From: Candidatus Omnitrophota bacterium
GTDB taxonomy: Bacteria > Omnitrophota > Gorgyraeia > Zapsychrales > Fredricksoniimonadaceae
NCBI GenBank assembly: GCA_903836515.1
Contig: CAILQW010000044.1
Coordinates: 1-37,717, forward strand
DNA length: 37,717 nucleotides
Direction of reading: 5' to 3'
Under the pieces are notes generated by a model that saw only the letters and a list, made by a program, of their open reading frames with translations, was not told the origin of the DNA and ran no database searches. This document shows, piece by piece, positions 370-37,717 of this stretch (position 1 is its first letter; each line of letters begins with the position of its first letter). A program made the translations under genes and the position numbers.

Positions 370-3300
370 TCAACGCCCCACCCCCCGCTGTTTCCACATA
401 AAATAGATCACCGGATACACCAGAAGCTCCAGGATAAAACTGCTGAAGATCCCGCCGATCATGGGGGCGGCGATGCGCTTCATCACGTCCGCACCCGCGC
501 CCATGGACCACATGATCGGGACAAGGCCCATGAACATGGCGGCCACGGTCATCAGTTTCGGACGGACACGCTTCACCGCGCCGTGGACAATCGCTTCCGT
601 CAGGTCTTCCCGGGTCCGCATTTTCCCCTGACGCACCGCGTCGTCATAAGCCATATCCAGAAAAAGAAGCATAAAAACACCCGTCTCGGCATCCAGCCCC
701 ATGAGCGCGATCATGCCGACCCACACAGCGATAGACATATTGTATCCAAGCATCCACAAGAACCACACGGCACCTACCAGCGAAAAAGGCACCGCCAGCA
801 TCACGATCCCGGCCTTGACCGGCGAACGGGTATTCATATAAAGCAAAATAAAAATAAGAAAGATCGTCAGGGGCAACACCACCCGCATCCGCTCGCGCAC
901 GCGCAGCATGTTCTCGAACTGACCGCTCCACTGCAGGGAATAACCGGTTGGAACCTTCAGCTCACGGGCCACAACACGCCGTGCCTCTTCCACAAAACTC
1001 CCGACATCGCGCCCGGCAATATCCACATACACATACCCCGCCAGCATGCCGTTCTCATCACGGATCATCCCGGGGCCGGTGGTGAGCTTGATATCGGCCA
1101 GCTGTTCCAACGACACCTGCGCGCCTGAAGCGGTCGGCACCAGCACGCGGCGCAATTTCGGAAGATCGTCGCGAAAATCACGGGCGTACCGGACATTCAC
1201 CGTATACCGTTCCCGGCCCTCGATCGTCGTGGTCACCGGCTCGCCGCCAATGGCGGACATAATGATATCTTGAACCTCTTTGATGGACAACCCGTAACGC
1301 GCGATCTCCAGGCGCTTGATATCGAAATCGATGAAATACCCGCCCGTCACACGTTCCGCGTAAACACTCCGTGCGCCCTTGATATTTTTGACAAGACCCT
1401 CCACGTCGATCCCGATCTTCTCGATCTGCGCCAGATCCGCGCCATACACTTTAATGCCGATCGGCGTCCGGATCCCGGTTGAAAGCATATCAATCCTGGC
1501 CTTGATCGGCATGGTCCATGCGTTGGACACCCCCGGGAACTGCATCTTCAAGTCCAGCTCGGCAATGAGATCCTCCCAGGAAATCCGGTCCGGCCAGATC
1601 GGGCGGAAGGGTGCCTGCAGGAAACCGGGGAACGTGGAATACCAGCGCGGCACATGGCGCCACGCACTCTCGGGCTTGAGAACGACCGTCGTCTCCATCA
1701 TGGAAAAAGGCGCCGGATCCGTCGATGTTTCCGCACGACCGGCCTTCCCGAAAACGCGCTCGACTTCCGGCACCGTCTTGATCACCTTGTCCATTTGCTG
1801 CAGGAGTTTCGCCGCCTCGGTCACGGAAATGCCCGGCAGCGTCGTGGGCATATAAAGGATAGATCCTTCATTCAACGGCGGCATGAATTCTGACCCTAAG
1901 CGCATAAAAACAGGGATCGTCGACACCACCAGCAAGGCTGCCGCGATCAAAGTGGCTTTAGGGAACTTAAGGACAAACCGGCACACCGGTTCATAACATC
2001 TGAACAACACCCTGCTGACGGGATGTTTTTCTTCAGGGTAATATTTCCCGACAAGAATACTGTTGAAAAAACTCGAGATCCAGACGGGTCGAAAACAGAT
2101 CGGATCAATGCGCGTAAAAAACATCCGCATCGCCGGATTAAGGGTCACCGCGAGAATCGCCGCGATCGCCATGGCAAAGTTCTTGCTGAACGCCAGCGGC
2201 TTGAACAACCGCCCCTCCTGGTCCAGGAGCGTGAATACCGGCAAAAATGCCACGGCTATCACCAACAGCGAAAAGAACACGGACGGCCCAACCTCTTTAA
2301 GTGCCGTCAACAGCACCTCGCGATAATCCCCCTGGCGCCCTCCCGCGTCCCACACTTGAAGCTTTTTGTAGGCATTCTCGACCTCAATGATGGCGCCGTC
2401 GACAAGCACCCCGATCGATATGGCAATACCGGCCAGGGACATGATGTTGGAGGTCAGCTTCATCATGAGCATCGGGATAAAACTGAGCAGCACGGCGACA
2501 GGAATCGTGACAATAGGGACACTGGCCGACGGGAAATGCCACAAAAAGAAAACAATCACCAGCGCCACAATGATCATTTCCTCCATGAGCTGATGCCTGA
2601 GCGTGTCAATGGCGCGGCGGATCAAATCCGAACGATCATAGGTGGTCACAAGCTCGACCCCCGGCGGCAAGGATGCCCTGACCTCCTTCAATTTTTCTTT
2701 GACCCGCTCAATGACATTTAAGGCGTTCTCCCCCGAACGCATGAGCACGATGCCCCCCACCGTATCGCCTTCGCCGTCCAGGTCCGCAATGCCGCGCCGC
2801 ATCTCCGGCCCCAGGGCCACAGACGCCACATTTTTAACAAAGATCGGCGTGCCGTTGGCATCGTTACCCAGGACAATATCCTCGATATCTTTGGCCGACT
2901 TGATATAGCCCCGCCCGCGCACCATATACTCAGTACCTGCCAGCTCGATCAGCCGCCCGCCCACATCGTTATTGCCATTACGGATCGCCTCGCTCACCTT
3001 CATGAGCGGTATGTTGTATGCCAGCAGGGCATTGGGCTTCACATTCACCTGGTACTGCTTCTGAAAACCGCCGACCGACGCCACCTCCGCCACACCCGGG
3101 ACAGACTGCAGCCAGTAACGCAGATACCAGTCCTGGAAAGAGCGCAGTTGAGAAAGATCATTTTTGCCGGACTTGTCAACCAAGGCATACTGATAAACCC
3201 ATCCCACAGACGTCGCATCCGGTCCGATCTCCGTCTTGACGCCTTCGGGCAATTTAGGCAATATCTTGCTCAAATACTCCAGCGTCCGGCTGCGTGCCCA

Positions 3301-3609
3301 GTAAATATCGGTGCCGTCCTTGAAAATGATATACACGAAAGAGTATCCAAAATCGGAAAAGCCGCGGATCGACTTCACGCCGGGAGCCCCCAGCATGGCC
3401 GTCACCACAGGATAGGTAACCTGGTCTTCGATAATGTCCGCAGAACGATCCCAGCGGGAATACACAATGACCTGCGTATCGGAAAGGTCCGGGATAGCAT
3501 CAAGAGGAATATTCTTCATGCTGTACACGGCGCCGACAAGTGCCATCACCGTCAGTATCATGACAATGTATTTATTCTTCGCTGAAAACTCTATGATTTT
3601 TTCGATCAT
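370..3609 (-). CDS. cusA: CusA-type heavy-metal RND efflux pump (Cu(I)/Ag(I) class)
   Basis: Inner-membrane RND permease of the HME family that exports metal ions from cytoplasm/periplasm using the proton gradient. The protein has 1079 residues, the usual family length, and starts MIEKIIEFSAKNK. Key residues of E. coli CusA are present: the TM4 proton-relay aspartate at D404 (GVLVDGA), and the methionine triad that binds Cu(I)/Ag(I), at M587 (LYMPTTLPG), M637 (PFSMMETT) and M708 (RIDMLSTG). This favours monovalent copper/silver over Zn/Co/Cd. A GGAG lies 9 bases before the ATG. It follows cusB in the same direction after a 168-bp gap that contains a palindromic repeat. No dedicated outer-membrane factor is in this operon. 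TolC homologues occur at 9613-10920 and 14118-15404. Confidence 0.93.
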   Translation of the reverse strand: MIEKIIEFSAKNKYIVMILTVMALVGAVYSMKNIPLDAIPDLSDTQVIVYSRWDRSADIIEDQVTYPVVTAMLGAPGVKSIRGFSDFGYSFVYIIFKDGTDIYWARSRTLEYLSKILPKLPEGVKTEIGPDATSVGWVYQYALVDKSGKNDLSQLRSFQDWYLRYWLQSVPGVAEVASVGGFQKQYQVNVKPNALLAYNIPLMKVSEAIRNGNNDVGGRLIELAGTEYMVRGRGYIKSAKDIEDIVLGNDANGTPIFVKNVASVALGPEMRRGIADLDGEGDTVGGIVLMRSGENALNVIERVKEKLKEVRASLPPGVELVTTYDRSDLIRRAIDTLRHQLMEEMIIVALVIVFFLWHFPSASVPIVTIPVAVLLSFIPMLMMKLTSNIMSLAGIAISIGVLVDGAIIEVENAYKKLQVWDAGGRQGDYREVLLTALKEVGPSVFFSLLVIAVAFLPVFTLLDQEGRLFKPLAFSKNFAMAIAAILAVTLNPAMRMFFTRIDPICFRPVWISSFFNSILVGKYYPEEKHPVSRVLFRCYEPVCRFVLKFPKATLIAAALLVVSTIPVFMRLGSEFMPPLNEGSILYMPTTLPGISVTEAAKLLQQMDKVIKTVPEVERVFGKAGRAETSTDPAPFSMMETTVVLKPESAWRHVPRWYSTFPGFLQAPFRPIWPDRISWEDLIAELDLKMQFPGVSNAWTMPIKARIDMLSTGIRTPIGIKVYGADLAQIEKIGIDVEGLVKNIKGARSVYAERVTGGYFIDFDIKRLEIARYGLSIKEVQDIIMSAIGGEPVTTTIEGRERYTVNVRYARDFRDDLPKLRRVLVPTASGAQVSLEQLADIKLTTGPGMIRDENGMLAGYVYVDIAGRDVGSFVEEARRVVARELKVPTGYSLQWSGQFENMLRVRERMRVVLPLTIFLIFILLYMNTRSPVKAGIVMLAVPFSLVGAVWFLWMLGYNMSIAVWVGMIALMGLDAETGVFMLLFLDMAYDDAVRQGKMRTREDLTEAIVHGAVKRVRPKLMTVAAMFMGLVPIMWSMGAGADVMKRIAAPMIGGIFSSFILELLVYPVIYFMWKQRGVGR

Positions 3610-3688: not shown

Positions 3689-3748
3689 AAGCTTGCGGTG
3701 TGCCTCGGATGCGAGTGCTGTCTGAGCAGACAGGCATGCCGCAAGCTT
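3689..3748. repeat. Palindromic multi-hairpin repeat, copy A
   Basis: Outer arms AAGCTTGCGG (3689-3698) and CCGCAAGCTT (3739-3748) are perfect inverted repeats and can extend inward over a further GCCT/AGGC. Inside are two smaller palindromes: TCG/CGA around GATG (3705-3714) and CTGTCTG/CAGACAG around AG (3718-3733). The block 3717-3749 is identical over 33 bases to 22952-22984 in copy B, and 3701-3716 is identical to 22888-22903. It sits between cusB and cusA and would be transcribed within the operon mRNA. It contains no ORF. A REP- or MITE-like element is the likeliest class. Confidence 0.8.
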
Positions 3749-3777
3749 CATACTCACACAATCACACCTTTGATTGA

Positions 3778-4641
3778 TTACAGAGCATTTTTTAATCTAC
3801 TCTCGGCATCAATCAAAAAATTCCCGCTCGTCACGACTTCTTCCCCTTCATGGAGGCCCGACAGGACTTGATAAAACTGCCCGGCCCTGGGTCCCAGCGT
3901 CACCTCACGCGCGGCAAACCGGTTGTCCCTGACAACATAAACGATCTTGCGCGTTCCGGAATCCATGACCGCTTCTTCAGGCACTGCCAACTGCTCTCCC
4001 AGGTCGACCCTGATCGTCGCGTTGACAAACATCCCCGGCTTAAGCTTCCCCTCCTTGTCTTCCACCTGAACCTTGGCGCGTGCGGTGCGGCTTGTGGTGT
4101 TAATAATGGGCCTCAGCCCTGCGACATTCCCTTTAAAGACCTCTCCAGGAAAAGCCACGGCGTCAATCCGCACTTCCTGGCCTTTTTTGATCAACCCCAA
4201 TTCATATTCATAGACCGTCACATAGACCAGCGTCCTGCTGCCATTGCGCCACTTGACTGATGCGGTCTTGATTTCCTGAAGATACTCGACCTGTCCCGAA
4301 TACAGACCGGGATCATCCGCGATCTTGCCGGCCGTCGCGATCTCAAGGGCGAGCTGACGCCGCTGCACCACGCCCCGCCTGACCCCGATCAACTGCTGTT
4401 TATCCGTATTAACGAGGACACCCGAAGGAGAACCCTGTGCCTCTGATGCTGTTTCTTTTAAGACAAGATCCATCCCGCAAATCGGACAGGATCCCTTGTG
4501 ATCAGAGGTGATCTGCGGATGCATGGGGCAAACATACACCACCTTGGCCGCATGCTGCCCCGCCGGTTCCACGGCGAAGCCCTGGGAAGGGGCTCCGCCG
4601 GCGTAAACGATACACAGCATGAATAATAATCTTGTTTTCAT
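3778..4641 (-). CDS. cusB: CusB-like periplasmic adaptor with metal-binding N-terminus, hairpin domain missing
   Basis: Membrane-fusion subunit expected to link CusA to an outer-membrane channel. The start is MKTRLLFML at 4641, with AGGAG four bases before the ATG, rather than the upstream in-frame ATG at 4656. A signal peptide is followed by a heavy-metal-binding domain (CPMHP at 38-42, CPICGMDL at 52-59), then a beta-barrel and membrane-proximal region ending near SGNFLIDAESRL. The protein is only 287 residues, whereas CusB-type adaptors are about 400-500. The sequence jumps from GQVEYLQEIKTA (about 116-127) directly to WRNGSRTLVYVTV, so most of the lipoyl/alpha-hairpin segment is absent. 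The frame is open and the flanks look normal, so this is an in-frame internal deletion. Docking to TolC may be impaired. Confidence 0.85.
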   Translation of the reverse strand: MKTRLLFMLCIVYAGGAPSQGFAVEPAGQHAAKVVYVCPMHPQITSDHKGSCPICGMDLVLKETASEAQGSPSGVLVNTDKQQLIGVRRGVVQRRQLALEIATAGKIADDPGLYSGQVEYLQEIKTASVKWRNGSRTLVYVTVYEYELGLIKKGQEVRIDAVAFPGEVFKGNVAGLRPIINTTSRTARAKVQVEDKEGKLKPGMFVNATIRVDLGEQLAVPEEAVMDSGTRKIVYVVRDNRFAAREVTLGPRAGQFYQVLSGLHEGEEVVTSGNFLIDAESRLKNAL

Positions 4642-4670
4642 AAAACTCCTCTCCAAAGCGCAGGCTGCGC

Positions 4671-5107: not shown

Positions 5108-5500
5108 TTAAAGACGGAGAGAGTGCTGCTGAAGATAAAGAGGAACAGACGAAAGACGCCCTGGCGGCGCGCCTCCATAGGCGACCCTTAATACGGCTGC
5201 CTGGAACAAAGACCTGCCGACCATGGCCACGGCAGGAGCATGAAAGGCATGTGAAATCCCCGCCGCCATCGTGAAAGCGCCCTGTTCGACTTCGGCAATA
5301 CCAAACTTGGTGAGGGCGCAATGGCAAGGCTTGGCATTCTTGTGATCCGCCGCCCTGTCGCCATGACAGCAGGCGCGCGCCACCACGTTCTGATGTGTCT
5401 GCGCCTGGGCCAGCTTCTCTATACAGCAGCAAAAAACAGCCGAAGCACCTACCGCTACGACCAGAAAAGCCATGATGAAAGGTTTAAAGAATTTCTTCAT
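5108..5500 (-). CDS. Cys/His-rich exported protein of the copper-efflux operon
   Basis: This 130-residue protein begins MKKFFKPFIMAFLVV, a signal peptide or membrane anchor, followed by CCC and then a cluster CCHGD...HKNAKPCHC (about residues 44-61). The cysteines and histidines suggest metal binding. The C-terminal half is unremarkable, ending SSVPLYLQQHSLRL. I do not recognise a named domain with certainty. Small exported proteins with this tail occur next to metal-efflux genes in related genomes, as far as I recall. It is the first gene of the likely metal operon (followed by the YHS-like protein, cusB and cusA). The spacing to the next gene is about 115 bases. The ribosome-binding site is weak. 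Confidence 0.55.
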   Translation of the reverse strand: MKKFFKPFIMAFLVVAVGASAVFCCCIEKLAQAQTHQNVVARACCHGDRAADHKNAKPCHCALTKFGIAEVEQGAFTMAAGISHAFHAPAVAMVGRSLFQAAVLRVAYGGAPPGRLSSVPLYLQQHSLRL

Positions 5501-17647: not shown

Positions 17648-17818
17648 ATAAGCCTCCTTGATCCCGATCATGCCGCGCCTACACGCCGCAACGACCAGGG
17701 GCAGTTCCAGGTTGATCTTTTATATCATGCTACGCCTTCCCCTGGCGGGAATGATCCTGCCGGAGACTATCTCCCCTTACTATTGTAACAAATGATATTA
17801 ACCCAGATTTTGCAGTAG

Positions 17819-17856
17819 CACCATTTTATCGACGTATCCACGCACACAAAATGGTG
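17819..17856. repeat. Inverted repeat, 9-bp arms
   Basis: CACCATTTT (17819-17827) and AAAATGGTG (17848-17856) are perfect complements around a 20-base loop. The stretch lies in a 300-bp gap (17648-17947) between two small ORFs where I see no other gene. There is no T-run, so a terminator is unlikely. A regulator-binding site or an mRNA hairpin is possible. Confidence 0.4.
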
Positions 17857-17947
17857 TGGATGCAAAATCGTCGGCTTCCATATTTTTTATCGTCCAGAAA
17901 AGCCGGGGTTATCCCGCGTTCATCTGTTCCCATTGCAAAATGCGGGA

Positions 17948-18100
17948 TTAACGGCTTTTACGCGCCGAGATCACGTTCTCCTTGGGCCGCTGAATGGCAC
18001 AGGAGTGGCACAAAAGATCGTGATTATAGATGCTTAAAACATTTTTACAGCGGGGACGTTGACACTTCCTGCCCTGACGGGACGTCACAGGTGGCTTGAT
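17948..18100 (-). CDS. Small zinc-ribbon protein, non-ATG start
   Basis: On the minus strand an open frame encodes RQGRKCQRPRCKNVLSIYN and then HDLLCHSCAIQ, ending ARKSR. CxxxxC followed about 16 residues later by CxxC, in a very basic 47-51 residue protein, looks like a zinc ribbon that could bind nucleic acid. There is no ATG. A Shine-Dalgarno-like AAGGAG sits five bases before an ATC at 18100 (the coordinate used here), and an in-frame GTG is at 18088 but 17 bases from that site. It lies 63 bases after the DEAD-box helicase gene in the same direction. Coding potential rests on the motif and the ribosome-binding site. Confidence 0.5.
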   Translation of the reverse strand: MKPPVTSRQGRKCQRPRCKNVLSIYNHDLLCHSCAIQRPKENVISARKSR

Positions 18101-21289: not shown

Positions 21290-22831
21290 TCACCACTCAA
21301 CAGGGAAATAGTCCTTGAGAAACTTGCCGCACCAGTGCTTTCCGGTCAGGATCCCGTCAAAAAATGGATCGCACACCCTGGCGGCCCCGTCGACAATATC
21401 CAAGGGCGGCTGAAAATCATGTTCTTTTTGCTTGCGCATGGACAAGGCAAAAGGATCTTCATCCGTCACCCAGCCTGTATCAACCGCATTCATGAAAATC
21501 CCGTATTTTGCCAGGTCGCTGGCTGATGTATGCGTCAGCATGTTAAGCGCGGCCTTGGCCATGTTCGTATGCGGATGACGGTCTGTTTTTACAAAACGAT
21601 GAAACTTCCCTTCCATGGCTGACACATTGACAATATGTTTCTGCCCGGTGTTCTGGCGTTTCATCATCCATGACAATTTGTTGCACAACACAAACGGCGC
21701 AATGGCATTGACCAACTGCAGTTCGATCATCTCGGAGGTGGGGATATCGCCCAAGCGCAGGCGCCAGCTGTTGGTTTCCCGCAAATCCACCTGCTGAAGA
21801 TCCGCATCCAGCTTCCCCTCGGGGAATACCTTCTCGAGGGACAAAGACTGGTCATGCACATAGGGTACCTGGGAAAGCTTCGCGGAAGCCGCCAGGCCAA
21901 CGCCGGTCATCTTGCCATTCCAGGATACCGCCAGGGAAGACTCGGCCACGCGCGGGGCATCCTTGGGATCAAGCCCCAATTCCTGCTTGCACATCTCAAA
22001 AGGCCGCAACAATCCCTGCACCGGCTGGGGAAGATCTTCAAAATGCAGCGCTTCATTGGCGATCATATGCGCATAAAAACCCGGCGGCCGCCGCACGGTC
22101 TGTGCAGCATTGTTGATCAAAAGGTCCAGCCGGTCATATTTCTGTTCAATGAACTTGCAAAATATCTCGACGCTGGGAGTGTGCCTCAGGTCCAGCCCGT
22201 AAATATGCAGCCGGTCTCCCCACTGCGCAAAATCCGTTTCGCGGGAATACCGCATGGCGCTGTCGACCGGGAAACGCGTGGTTGCGATAACACGGGCACC
22301 CGCGCGCAGCATCATGAGGGCGGCCTGGTACCCGATCTTTAAACGGGACCCCGTGATCAGGGCGACCTGGCCCGCCAGCGACGCGGTCTGGAATCGCTTG
22401 GCATAATTGAATGCCGCGCATTGCGGACACATCGAATCATAAAAAAAATGCACCTTGGTGAATTCCTGCTTGCACACATAGCAGGAATCGGGCTTCAGCA
22501 ATTCCAGACCCTGATCCACTGCCTGCCGGGACGGGCCTTCGAGGCATGGCGGCGCGATGAACACCGCCGCTTCGCGGGCCGCACGGATGCCGGTTGCCGC
22601 ACGCACCTGGCGTTCATGCGTGTCGATCTTCTGGTGTTTGAGCTGGGTCCTGGCACGTTTTCTTTTTTCAAATTCAAGCTTGTCCGGACGGGAGATCATG
22701 CCCGCGGCCTTTCTTAATGCCACGCTTTGCGCCGTCGATAAATCGGCTAATTGCGAACTATCCCGGACAAGACCCTCTAAAACGCGGATGCACTGTTCAA
22801 TATCCTGGGGTGTCTGTTTCGACGTTACCAT
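21290..22831 (-). CDS. Atypical SDR-fold oxidoreductase with zinc-ribbon insert
   Basis: The 513-residue protein has a helical, very basic N-terminal third, a zinc-ribbon-like CYVCKQEF...CPQCAAF around 115-140, and then a Rossmann domain ([14 protein letters not shown]). The SDR NN(A) motif is visible as [10 protein letters not shown]. At the active site VNVSAMEG supplies a serine, but the usual YxxxK reads TNMAK, so the catalytic tyrosine is replaced by threonine. The glycine motif is TGSRLKIG rather than TGxxxGIG. I recall a family in bacteria and plants with this same arrangement, so it may be a real subfamily with altered chemistry. The substrate is unknown. Its stop faces the recQ stop. 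Confidence 0.8.
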
Positions 22832-22874: not shown

Positions 22875-22984
22875 GAAGCTGGCGGCATGCCTCGGATGCG
22901 AGTTCAGAAACCAAGCTTTCCTCAAAATCCATCCAAGAGAAAGCTGTTTCTGCTGTCTGAGCAGACAGGCATGCCGCAAGCTTC
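22875..22984. repeat. Palindromic multi-hairpin repeat, copy B (with an extra arm)
   Basis: Outer arms 22875-22892 and 22967-22984 pair over 18 bases with one mismatch (CATGCCT/AGGCATG at the inner end). Between them are TCG/CGA around GATG, an additional arm at 22906-22951 in which AGAAAC pairs with GTTTCT and AGCTTTC pairs with GAAAGCT, and CTGTCTG/CAGACAG. Bases 22952-22984 are identical to 3717-3749 of copy A. The segment 22904-22951 is absent from copy A. It lies in the 181-base gap between the MazG-like gene and the SDR gene, both on the minus strand. Confidence 0.8.
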
Positions 22985-23012: not shown

Positions 23013-23360
23013 TCACAACTTGTTATATTTCGTATGCCGACCGCGGCATTTCTCGACCGGATATTTTTCCGCATTTTTCTTCATCTTGGAAGCGATGGCC
23101 TGCCCCAGATCTATGTCCAGATCCCGCGCCAGTTCAAAAACATACCACGCCACATCCGCCAGCTCATCAGCCAGTTCATCCTTGTGTTCTTTCCCGTGCA
23201 ACGCCACTTCCGCCGAGGACTTCCACTGGAAATGCTCCAGCACCTCGCCCGCCTCAAGGACCAGCGACAACGCCACATCTTTATGGTTATGGAATTGCTT
23301 CCAGTCCCGCGCGTCGCGGAATTGCATGATCTTTTCTGTGATCTCGTGGATCTCGCCCAT
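23013..23360 (-). CDS. MazG-like nucleotide pyrophosphohydrolase (RS21-C6/dCTPase type)
   Basis: All-alpha NTP pyrophosphatase of 115 residues, starting MGEIHEITEKIMQF at 23360 with GGAG seven bases upstream. An in-frame start at 23495 lies inside the upstream gene. The metal-binding pattern LVLEAGEVLEHFQW and, further on, DELADELADVAWYV is the ExxE...ExxD signature of MazG-type enzymes. These remove abnormal nucleotides such as dCTP derivatives. The protein is the right length for the single-domain type. It follows the DUF1456 gene by 16 bases and is probably co-transcribed with it. Confidence 0.85.
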   Translation of the reverse strand: MGEIHEITEKIMQFRDARDWKQFHNHKDVALSLVLEAGEVLEHFQWKSSAEVALHGKEHKDELADELADVAWYVFELARDLDIDLGQAIASKMKKNAEKYPVEKCRGRHTKYNKL

Positions 23361-23376
23361 GGGATCGCTCCTGTTG

Positions 23377-23682
23377 TTATGCGCGGGGGACATGCGGCCT
23401 GAACGGTTTGACCGCTTCCATTTTCGGCACGGGCCGGGGTTGGGGCGGTTTAATGCTTTTTTCCTGAACGCCGCGGTTGCGGATAATAAGCCCATCGAGA
23501 AAACGCCTCAACAGCTGGTTCCCGCAAGGCATGTACTGTGCCTGGCCTTCCTTGCGAAAGATCGCCGACAATTCCGAGGACGTGGTTTCAAACTCGGCCA
23601 GCTTCAGGATCTCGATGATATCGGTGTCTCTCAGGTGCAACGCCACCCGAAGCTTTTTCATGATGTCATTATTGGTGATCAT
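23377..23682 (-). CDS. DUF1456 family protein, single-repeat form
   Basis: The protein has 101 residues from MITNNDIMKKLRVALHL, a motif characteristic of DUF1456 (E. coli YehS). YehS has two such repeats in about 156 residues. Here one repeat (to LRRFLDGLIIRNRG) is followed by a Pro/Lys-rich tail (KPPQPRPVPKMEAVKPF). The function of the family is not known to me. Upstream in-frame ATGs at 23733 and 23721 exist but the domain begins at 23682. It is cotranscribed with the MazG-like gene. Confidence 0.75.
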   Translation of the reverse strand: MITNNDIMKKLRVALHLRDTDIIEILKLAEFETTSSELSAIFRKEGQAQYMPCGNQLLRRFLDGLIIRNRGVQEKSIKPPQPRPVPKMEAVKPFRPHVPRA

Positions 23683-37086: not shown

Positions 37087-37451
37087 TCATTTAAGAAGAC
37101 CCTCTATTTTTTTCACCAGCGCTTCGACATCAAACGGCTTACTGATAACACCGGCAACAAGACCGGACTTTATTTCCTTGCTGTATAAATGATCCAGGTC
37201 CATCATGCCGGAAATAATAAAAACCAAAGATTGGGGATTGAACTCCTTGGTCATTTTCAATAAGTCCATACCACTCAACCCATTCATTTTATAATCAAAT
37301 AAACATACATCATATTTATGTTTCTTTACGCGCTTTGCGGCTTCTTCGCTATTTGTTTCCTCGTCAACATAATACCCCTCGTCACGAAAAACAAGGGCTA
37401 ATGCGCAGCAAATAGATTGGTTATCATCAACAATAAGTATTTTTGGCTCAT
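37087..37451 (-). pseudogene. Response-regulator receiver with damaged start
   Basis: The frame reads PKILIVDDNQSICCAL and then DVCLFDYKMNGLSGMDLL, with conserved Asp pair (VDD), phospho-acceptor D in LFDYKM, and a Lys in ISKPFDV. It is a single receiver domain of about 115 residues that ends LVKKIEGLLK. No ATG, GTG or TTG opens the frame before the internal ATG at 37287. An ATG at 37451 is in another frame. Restoring one C after ATGAGCC would give M-S-P-K-I-L-I-V-D-D, so a single-base deletion or assembly error is likely. The transposase stop overlaps this ATG. A stand-alone receiver could relay signals to a partner. Confidence 0.7.
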
Positions 37452-37717
37452 TCTGAATTGTTGAACGCCACCGTCCACGGCTGAAAAAACCTTAAAGACG
37501 AGCACGCCTGGATAATTTTTAGCTTCATGTACTCGTCATCCCGGTAGCCATAGGCACGGCGGATGATGTTTTTAGCATTAAGGTTCGTTGACTCGACAAA
37601 TCCCAACGGGAGTTTATGATCGCAATACGCGAGAATGCCATCCAGATGTTTATCGACCATTCGAACGAAGCGCTCATACGATTCCAGCCGGGCCCACTTC
37701 AACGAATCCTTCCAGAG
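37448..37717 (-). CDS. ISL3 family transposase, C-terminal part (runs off the window)
   Basis: The visible 89 residues begin LWKDSLKWARLESYERFV and contain the ISL3 end motif: HLDGILAYCDHKLPLGFVES, then TNLNAKNIIRRAYGYRDDEYM. The order ILAYCDHKL...ES.N.KAK...YGYR is the C-terminal DDE domain of ISL3 elements. The protein ends FNNSE at 37448, whose stop (ATGA) overlaps the ATG of the response-regulator fragment. No inverted repeat is seen after the stop, so the element may be truncated here. The rest lies beyond the right edge. Confidence 0.7.
   Translation of the reverse strand, partial: LWKDSLKWARLESYERFVRMVDKHLDGILAYCDHKLPLGFVESTNLNAKNIIRRAYGYRDDEYMKLKIIQACSSLRFFQPWTVAFNNSE

Follow-up and report, generated by a model that had tools for sequence, protein, structure and literature searches.

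The two intergenic repeats found in the window (the whole analysed stretch of 37,717 nucleotides, from an Omnitrophota MAG) belong to an apparently undescribed family of mobile DNA hairpins, present up to dozens of times per genome in several bacterial phyla, whose stems vary freely but stay paired around one fixed internal loop. The existence of a mobile, structured family is close to certain; the mechanism by which it moves is much less so, and no mobilizing enzyme was identified.

Two copies in the window

Positions 3716-3749 and 22951-22984 were identical over 34 nt (33 in the first-pass annotation), and a 16-nt block (3701-3716 and 22888-22903) was also identical, inside a 44-nt match of 77% identity. 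Both regions folded far better than shuffled sequence on the + strand (z-scores of -5.1 for copy A and -6.4 for copy B; none of 200 shuffles reached these values). Both were located between co-directional minus-strand genes: copy A between a gene for a CusB-like adaptor (3778-4656) and a CusA/AcrB-like RND gene (370-3609), and copy B between an SDR-like gene (21290-22831) and a MazG-like gene (23013-23495). The parts of the two copies were as follows:

3689..3748 (+), copy A, a truncated copy of the hairpin element lacking the inner stem-loop, inside the CusB-CusA-like operon
3689..3705 (+), copy A, outer stem, left arm
3711..3716 (+), copy A, remnant of constant loop strand 1 (GCGAGT)
3718..3727 (+), copy A, constant loop strand 2 (CTGTCTGAGC)
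3732..3748 (+), copy A, outer stem, right arm
22875..22984 (+), copy B, a full copy of the hairpin element
22875..22892 (+), copy B, outer stem, left arm
22898..22904 (+), copy B, constant loop strand 1 (GCGAGTT; pattern match at 22898-22962)
22905..22919 (+), copy B, inner stem, left arm (CAGAAACCAAGCTTT)
22940..22952 (+), copy B, inner stem, right arm (AAAGCTGTTTCTG)
22953..22962 (+), copy B, constant loop strand 2 (CTGTCTGAGC)
22967..22984 (+), copy B, outer stem, right arm

The repeat pair reported by the first-pass annotation was therefore confirmed, with one correction besides the length of the block: smaller hairpins had been described inside the outer stem of each copy, but copy A has no inner hairpin and equals a B-type copy from which about 49 nt between GCGAG and TGCTGTCTGAGC are missing.

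A multi-copy family in the same genome

Finding only these two copies had been named beforehand as the result that would reduce the observation to a chance duplication. This was not the case: searches of the window's own assembly found 13 full copies on 11 contigs, plus several fragments. Their alignment showed an invariant core and outer stems differing in sequence, and 14 of 36 consensus pairs had changed on both sides with the pair kept. A covariance model built from these copies found matches in 17 of 55 genomes of the order, this one included.

General architecture and distribution

Every full copy was a long hairpin (the element being about 110-150 bp) with a variable outer stem, a constant two-strand internal loop (GCGAGTT opposite CTGTYTGAGC) and a variable inner stem-loop; in relatives, the inner stem also changed completely. 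Many lineages had an extended form of the loop, GCGAGTTCCGCAGC / GCGAGGACTGTYTGAGC. The exact pattern GCGAGTT-N(36-66)-CTGTYTGAGC was present in 27 of 384 genomes of the phylum, often repeatedly, against 3 control hits in all, though some single hits in other genomes look like chance matches. A scan of named genomes found the extended form in at least Adlercreutzia, Enterorhabdus, Olsenella, Thermophilibacter, Senegalimassilia and other Coriobacteriia, a Dormibacterota MAG, Bdellovibrio-type MAGs (Bdellovibrionota) and Omnitrophota MAGs. Five Adlercreutzia genomes held 4 to 32 exact-motif copies with no control hits. In Adlercreutzia copies, a weakly conserved palindrome (CTCAACCATGGTTGAG) was located beyond the outer stem, in the left flank at about -45 to -30, and may be a further part of the element in that genus. 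No element was found in plasmid and phage records, and viral contigs contained one permuted copy only (see below).

The window showed no Rfam match at the gathering threshold, and further Rfam searches gave only weak matches far below gathering scores. No published description of the family was found, although most subscription journals lay outside the literature searched, and an earlier description or an unnamed computational prediction cannot be excluded.

Selection on a folded single strand

Both stems covaried: the arms of one copy paired at about 14-15 of 16 outer positions, but arms swapped between copies at only about 10, and inner stems behaved likewise. A first count of mismatches, which included loosely aligned stem ends, showed no outer-stem asymmetry between G·T and A·C (112 vs. 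110). When only outer-stem mismatches flanked by Watson-Crick pairs were counted, G·T exceeded A·C on the GCGAGTT strand: 39:15 in a first set, and then 60:18 distinct contexts in Omnitrophota and 85:22 in a mainly Coriobacteriia set (three- to fourfold), in tests not corrected for shared ancestry. The filter was chosen after the first count, but the second, larger data set is largely independent of it. The complementary strand would show the reverse, so the GCGAGTT strand is the one whose folding matters. Inner stems contained too few mismatches for this comparison.

Circularly permuted copies, in which the outer stem is closed by a short loop and the inner stem is the open end, were found as 8 hits in 5 genomes (G387, G216, G196, G190 and G130; G, L and C numbers denote genomes, loci and contigs, respectively), with no control hits, and once in a viral contig. 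Most had their own stem sequences, pointing to the loop as the unit; the permuted copies (these hits and L251-L253 and L377) also shared further flanking similarity, for example GCGAGAGACCTTTGC-like right flanks.

Mobility and genomic context

Orthologous filled and empty sites were found in Omnitrophota (L100 vs. L127; L237 vs. L127 and L119) and in Coriobacteriia (L257 vs. L347 and L305; L260 vs. L347; L360 vs. L352; L309 and L367 vs. L329), showing that the element has been mobile. The empty sites were from different species or genera and were too diverged for exact insertion events or a target-site duplication to be read. One site was filled in two congeners (L108/L111), and another held different subfamilies in the same place and orientation (L148/L095). 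Insertion into pre-existing hairpins as the source of the outer stem was rejected, as the empty sites of L100 in L127 and L119 have no hairpin.

Neighboring genes were ordinary housekeeping genes, as were the genes between neighboring copies, so that composite transposons were rejected. Copies occurred in all gene orientations, but in Omnitrophota the folding strand was mostly antisense to co-directional neighbors (31:12), including at both window copies. All 8 pairs separated by less than 400 bp in one comparison, and all 7 pairs under 300 bp in another (partly the same pairs), were back-to-back, where about 0.1 such pairs per genome are expected by chance. Four Adlercreutzia/Enterorhabdus genomes carried a sense copy in frame inside one gene (encoding ...VTGLLCGCDIA...; L260:4460, L347:5194, L334:3233 and L305:6459), adding about 53-62 codons with differing stems and with the reading frame open throughout. 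In UBA10174, one copy was nested in the inner loop of another in opposite orientation (L080, about 1475-1650; L190, about 1305-1470), and the flanks suggest that this compound has been amplified. No autonomous copy with a gene between the two loop strands was seen: long spacings were nested or neighboring copies or chance pairs.

Y1 transposases were common in these genomes, but no element was located beside any Y1 gene examined, and PF01797 was not detected in four Adlercreutzia genomes (G397-G400) with 4, 23, 26 and 32 exact-motif copies, while control genomes gave hits; a very divergent HUH protein could have been missed by this search. Reverse transcriptases (RVT_1) were not found in 11 of 20 copy-bearing genomes, several of which are incomplete assemblies, against an origin as a retron or group II intron derivative.

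Comparison with known systems

REP, BIME and REPIN elements (GTAG- and CGTC-tagged) are also dispersed, mostly intergenic palindromes that form inverted dimers of unlike partners, with stem sequences that vary while pairing is kept (PMC3733652). However, REPs there have 5-13 bp stems, a GTAG or CGTC tag and, for the GTAG class, an associated transposase, whereas here the stems are about 20 bp or longer on two levels around a constant internal loop, no tag was present as a shared motif at the hairpin foot, and no Y1 gene is associated.

MITEs, including ERIC/RU and Correia-type repeats, are likewise gene-less, palindromic and multi-copy, of about 100-150 bp, with presence/absence between relatives, and carry the terminal repeats of a parent IS. 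In the present family, outer arms differed from copy to copy, and no fixed terminal sequence or parent IS was found, though the latter without a systematic search. Rickettsia palindromic elements (RPE) are found in frame inside coding genes; the present copies were mostly intergenic, and conservation is of a folded internal loop across phyla. Integron attC sites share a folded single strand with paired boxes around an unpaired asymmetric spacer, and a structure more conserved than its sequence, but no core boxes, arrays or cassettes were seen in the copies examined here, and the spacer is the conserved part. Permutable ribozymes, for example hammerhead types I-III, have constant core strands, variable stems and circular permutations (PMC3088659 for the hammerhead), but no sequence resemblance was noted and any catalysis by the present loop would be inferred by analogy only.

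Interpretation

The analysis itself establishes that the two sites are copies of a dispersed hairpin element that has been mobile, with variable stems and a constant internal loop, and that folding of the GCGAGTT strand is under selection. That the element carries no gene and is moved in trans is inferred, as is the rest of the mechanism: an unidentified recombinase or transposase would recognize the internal loop on the folded single strand (most likely ssDNA) and insert it, mostly between genes and sometimes as a back-to-back pair. In this view the stems need only to pair, and so drift by compensatory change while the loop stays fixed; copy B is intact, and copy A, a deletion derivative that has lost its inner hairpin, is probably a decayed remnant. 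This explanation is considered about as likely as not. Against it, no mobilizing enzyme, exact ends or target-site duplication were identified, the wobble excess is equally expected for RNA, and the replication-strand orientation of copies did not speak clearly for or against the bias expected for ssDNA transposition.

The interpretation given in the first-pass annotation was partly supported. A mobile, structured, multi-copy palindromic family with compensatory changes, of REP/MITE type in its behavior and without a published description that we could find, was supported. Its restriction to this genome was much too narrow, it is not a REP in the strict sense, and an RNA-processing role is not shown; the strand whose folding is selected is mostly antisense to neighboring genes in Omnitrophota.

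The next explanation, possible but less likely, is that the functional molecule is RNA: a small structured module (protein-binding site, processing signal or ribozyme-like motif) spread through genomes on a mobile element. G-U wobble tolerance on one strand, an invariant internal loop between variable stems and circular permutation, a property of ribozymes such as the hammerhead (PMC3088659; the comparison is ours), are compatible with it. The absence of an Rfam match, the lack of a fixed position relative to genes (unlike a cis-regulatory RNA or riboswitch) and the mostly antisense orientation in Omnitrophota are against it, and the sense copies in frame inside a coding gene argue against efficient self-cleavage.

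An attC-like site recombined as folded ssDNA by a tyrosine recombinase is unlikely. Two paired boxes around an asymmetric unpaired spacer, strand-specific folding and a 2-nt bulge in the inner stem are reminiscent of attC sites, but no RYYYAAC/GTTRRRY boxes were seen by inspection, and the copies examined lay singly, dispersed among housekeeping genes, without cassette arrays. A REP/REPIN-type element mobilized by a Y1 (HUH) REP-associated tyrosine transposase (RAYT) is similarly unlikely and already largely refuted: the palindromic, dispersed, mostly intergenic copies and inverted dimers fit, but the missing tag, the long stems with a conserved internal loop and the Y1 results described above do not. 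Equally unlikely are palindromes kept symmetric only by template switching or gene conversion without selection on folding. This would give compensatory arm changes without function, and one orthologous site does carry different subfamilies in the same place and orientation (L148/L095), but strand symmetry would be expected instead of 60:18 and 85:22, and neither the invariant loop across phyla nor the permuted form is explained. Chance duplication is refuted by the 13 full copies in this genome and by pattern hits far above controls in the phylum.

Other identities were also rejected. Intrinsic terminators did not fit on inspection, because in several copies T runs precede and A runs follow the stem, the reverse of a terminator. 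For a kink-turn, tandem G-A pairs are possible next to the outer stem but, on inspection only, the rest does not fit. A resemblance to the hairpin ribozyme was limited to an octamer on the other strand.

Dispersed bacterial palindromes are usually explained by REP/RAYT systems or by IS-derived MITEs. On present evidence this family fits neither, yet it is abundant in cultured gut bacteria (Adlercreutzia, Olsenella) and in uncultured phyla. The strand-specific wobble bias is direct evidence of selection on a folded single strand and the permuted forms pin the function to one small loop, making the search for the cognate enzyme concrete, with the four Adlercreutzia genomes lacking a detected Y1 transposase as a starting point. 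A more far-reaching reading, held only tentatively, is that the constant, permutable loop is a new kind of nucleic-acid recognition or catalytic module (an RNA motif, or a folded-ssDNA recombination site used by a non-HUH enzyme) that has spread across phyla as a gene-less mobile hairpin, in which case its cognate enzyme would define a new mobility system.

Other repeats in the same genome

A second repeat of about 140 bp (TTCGCCTGCCTTAWCGCGCCACCC...GGCGCGGCGAAAA, with palindromic ends) was located directly next to the hairpin element at three of its loci (L142:4127-4269, L148:4380-4521 and L145, about 5155-5290), and a related sequence appeared in G004 (L106). Window positions 17793-17948 (about 157 bp) were 89% identical to contig C45 (L143:683-836), being another dispersed repeat of this genome and not the hairpin element. 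Positions 37439-37580 (about 142 bp), at the window's end, were 98% identical to the end of contig C58 (L153:4020-4161) and constitute an assembly-breaking repeat.
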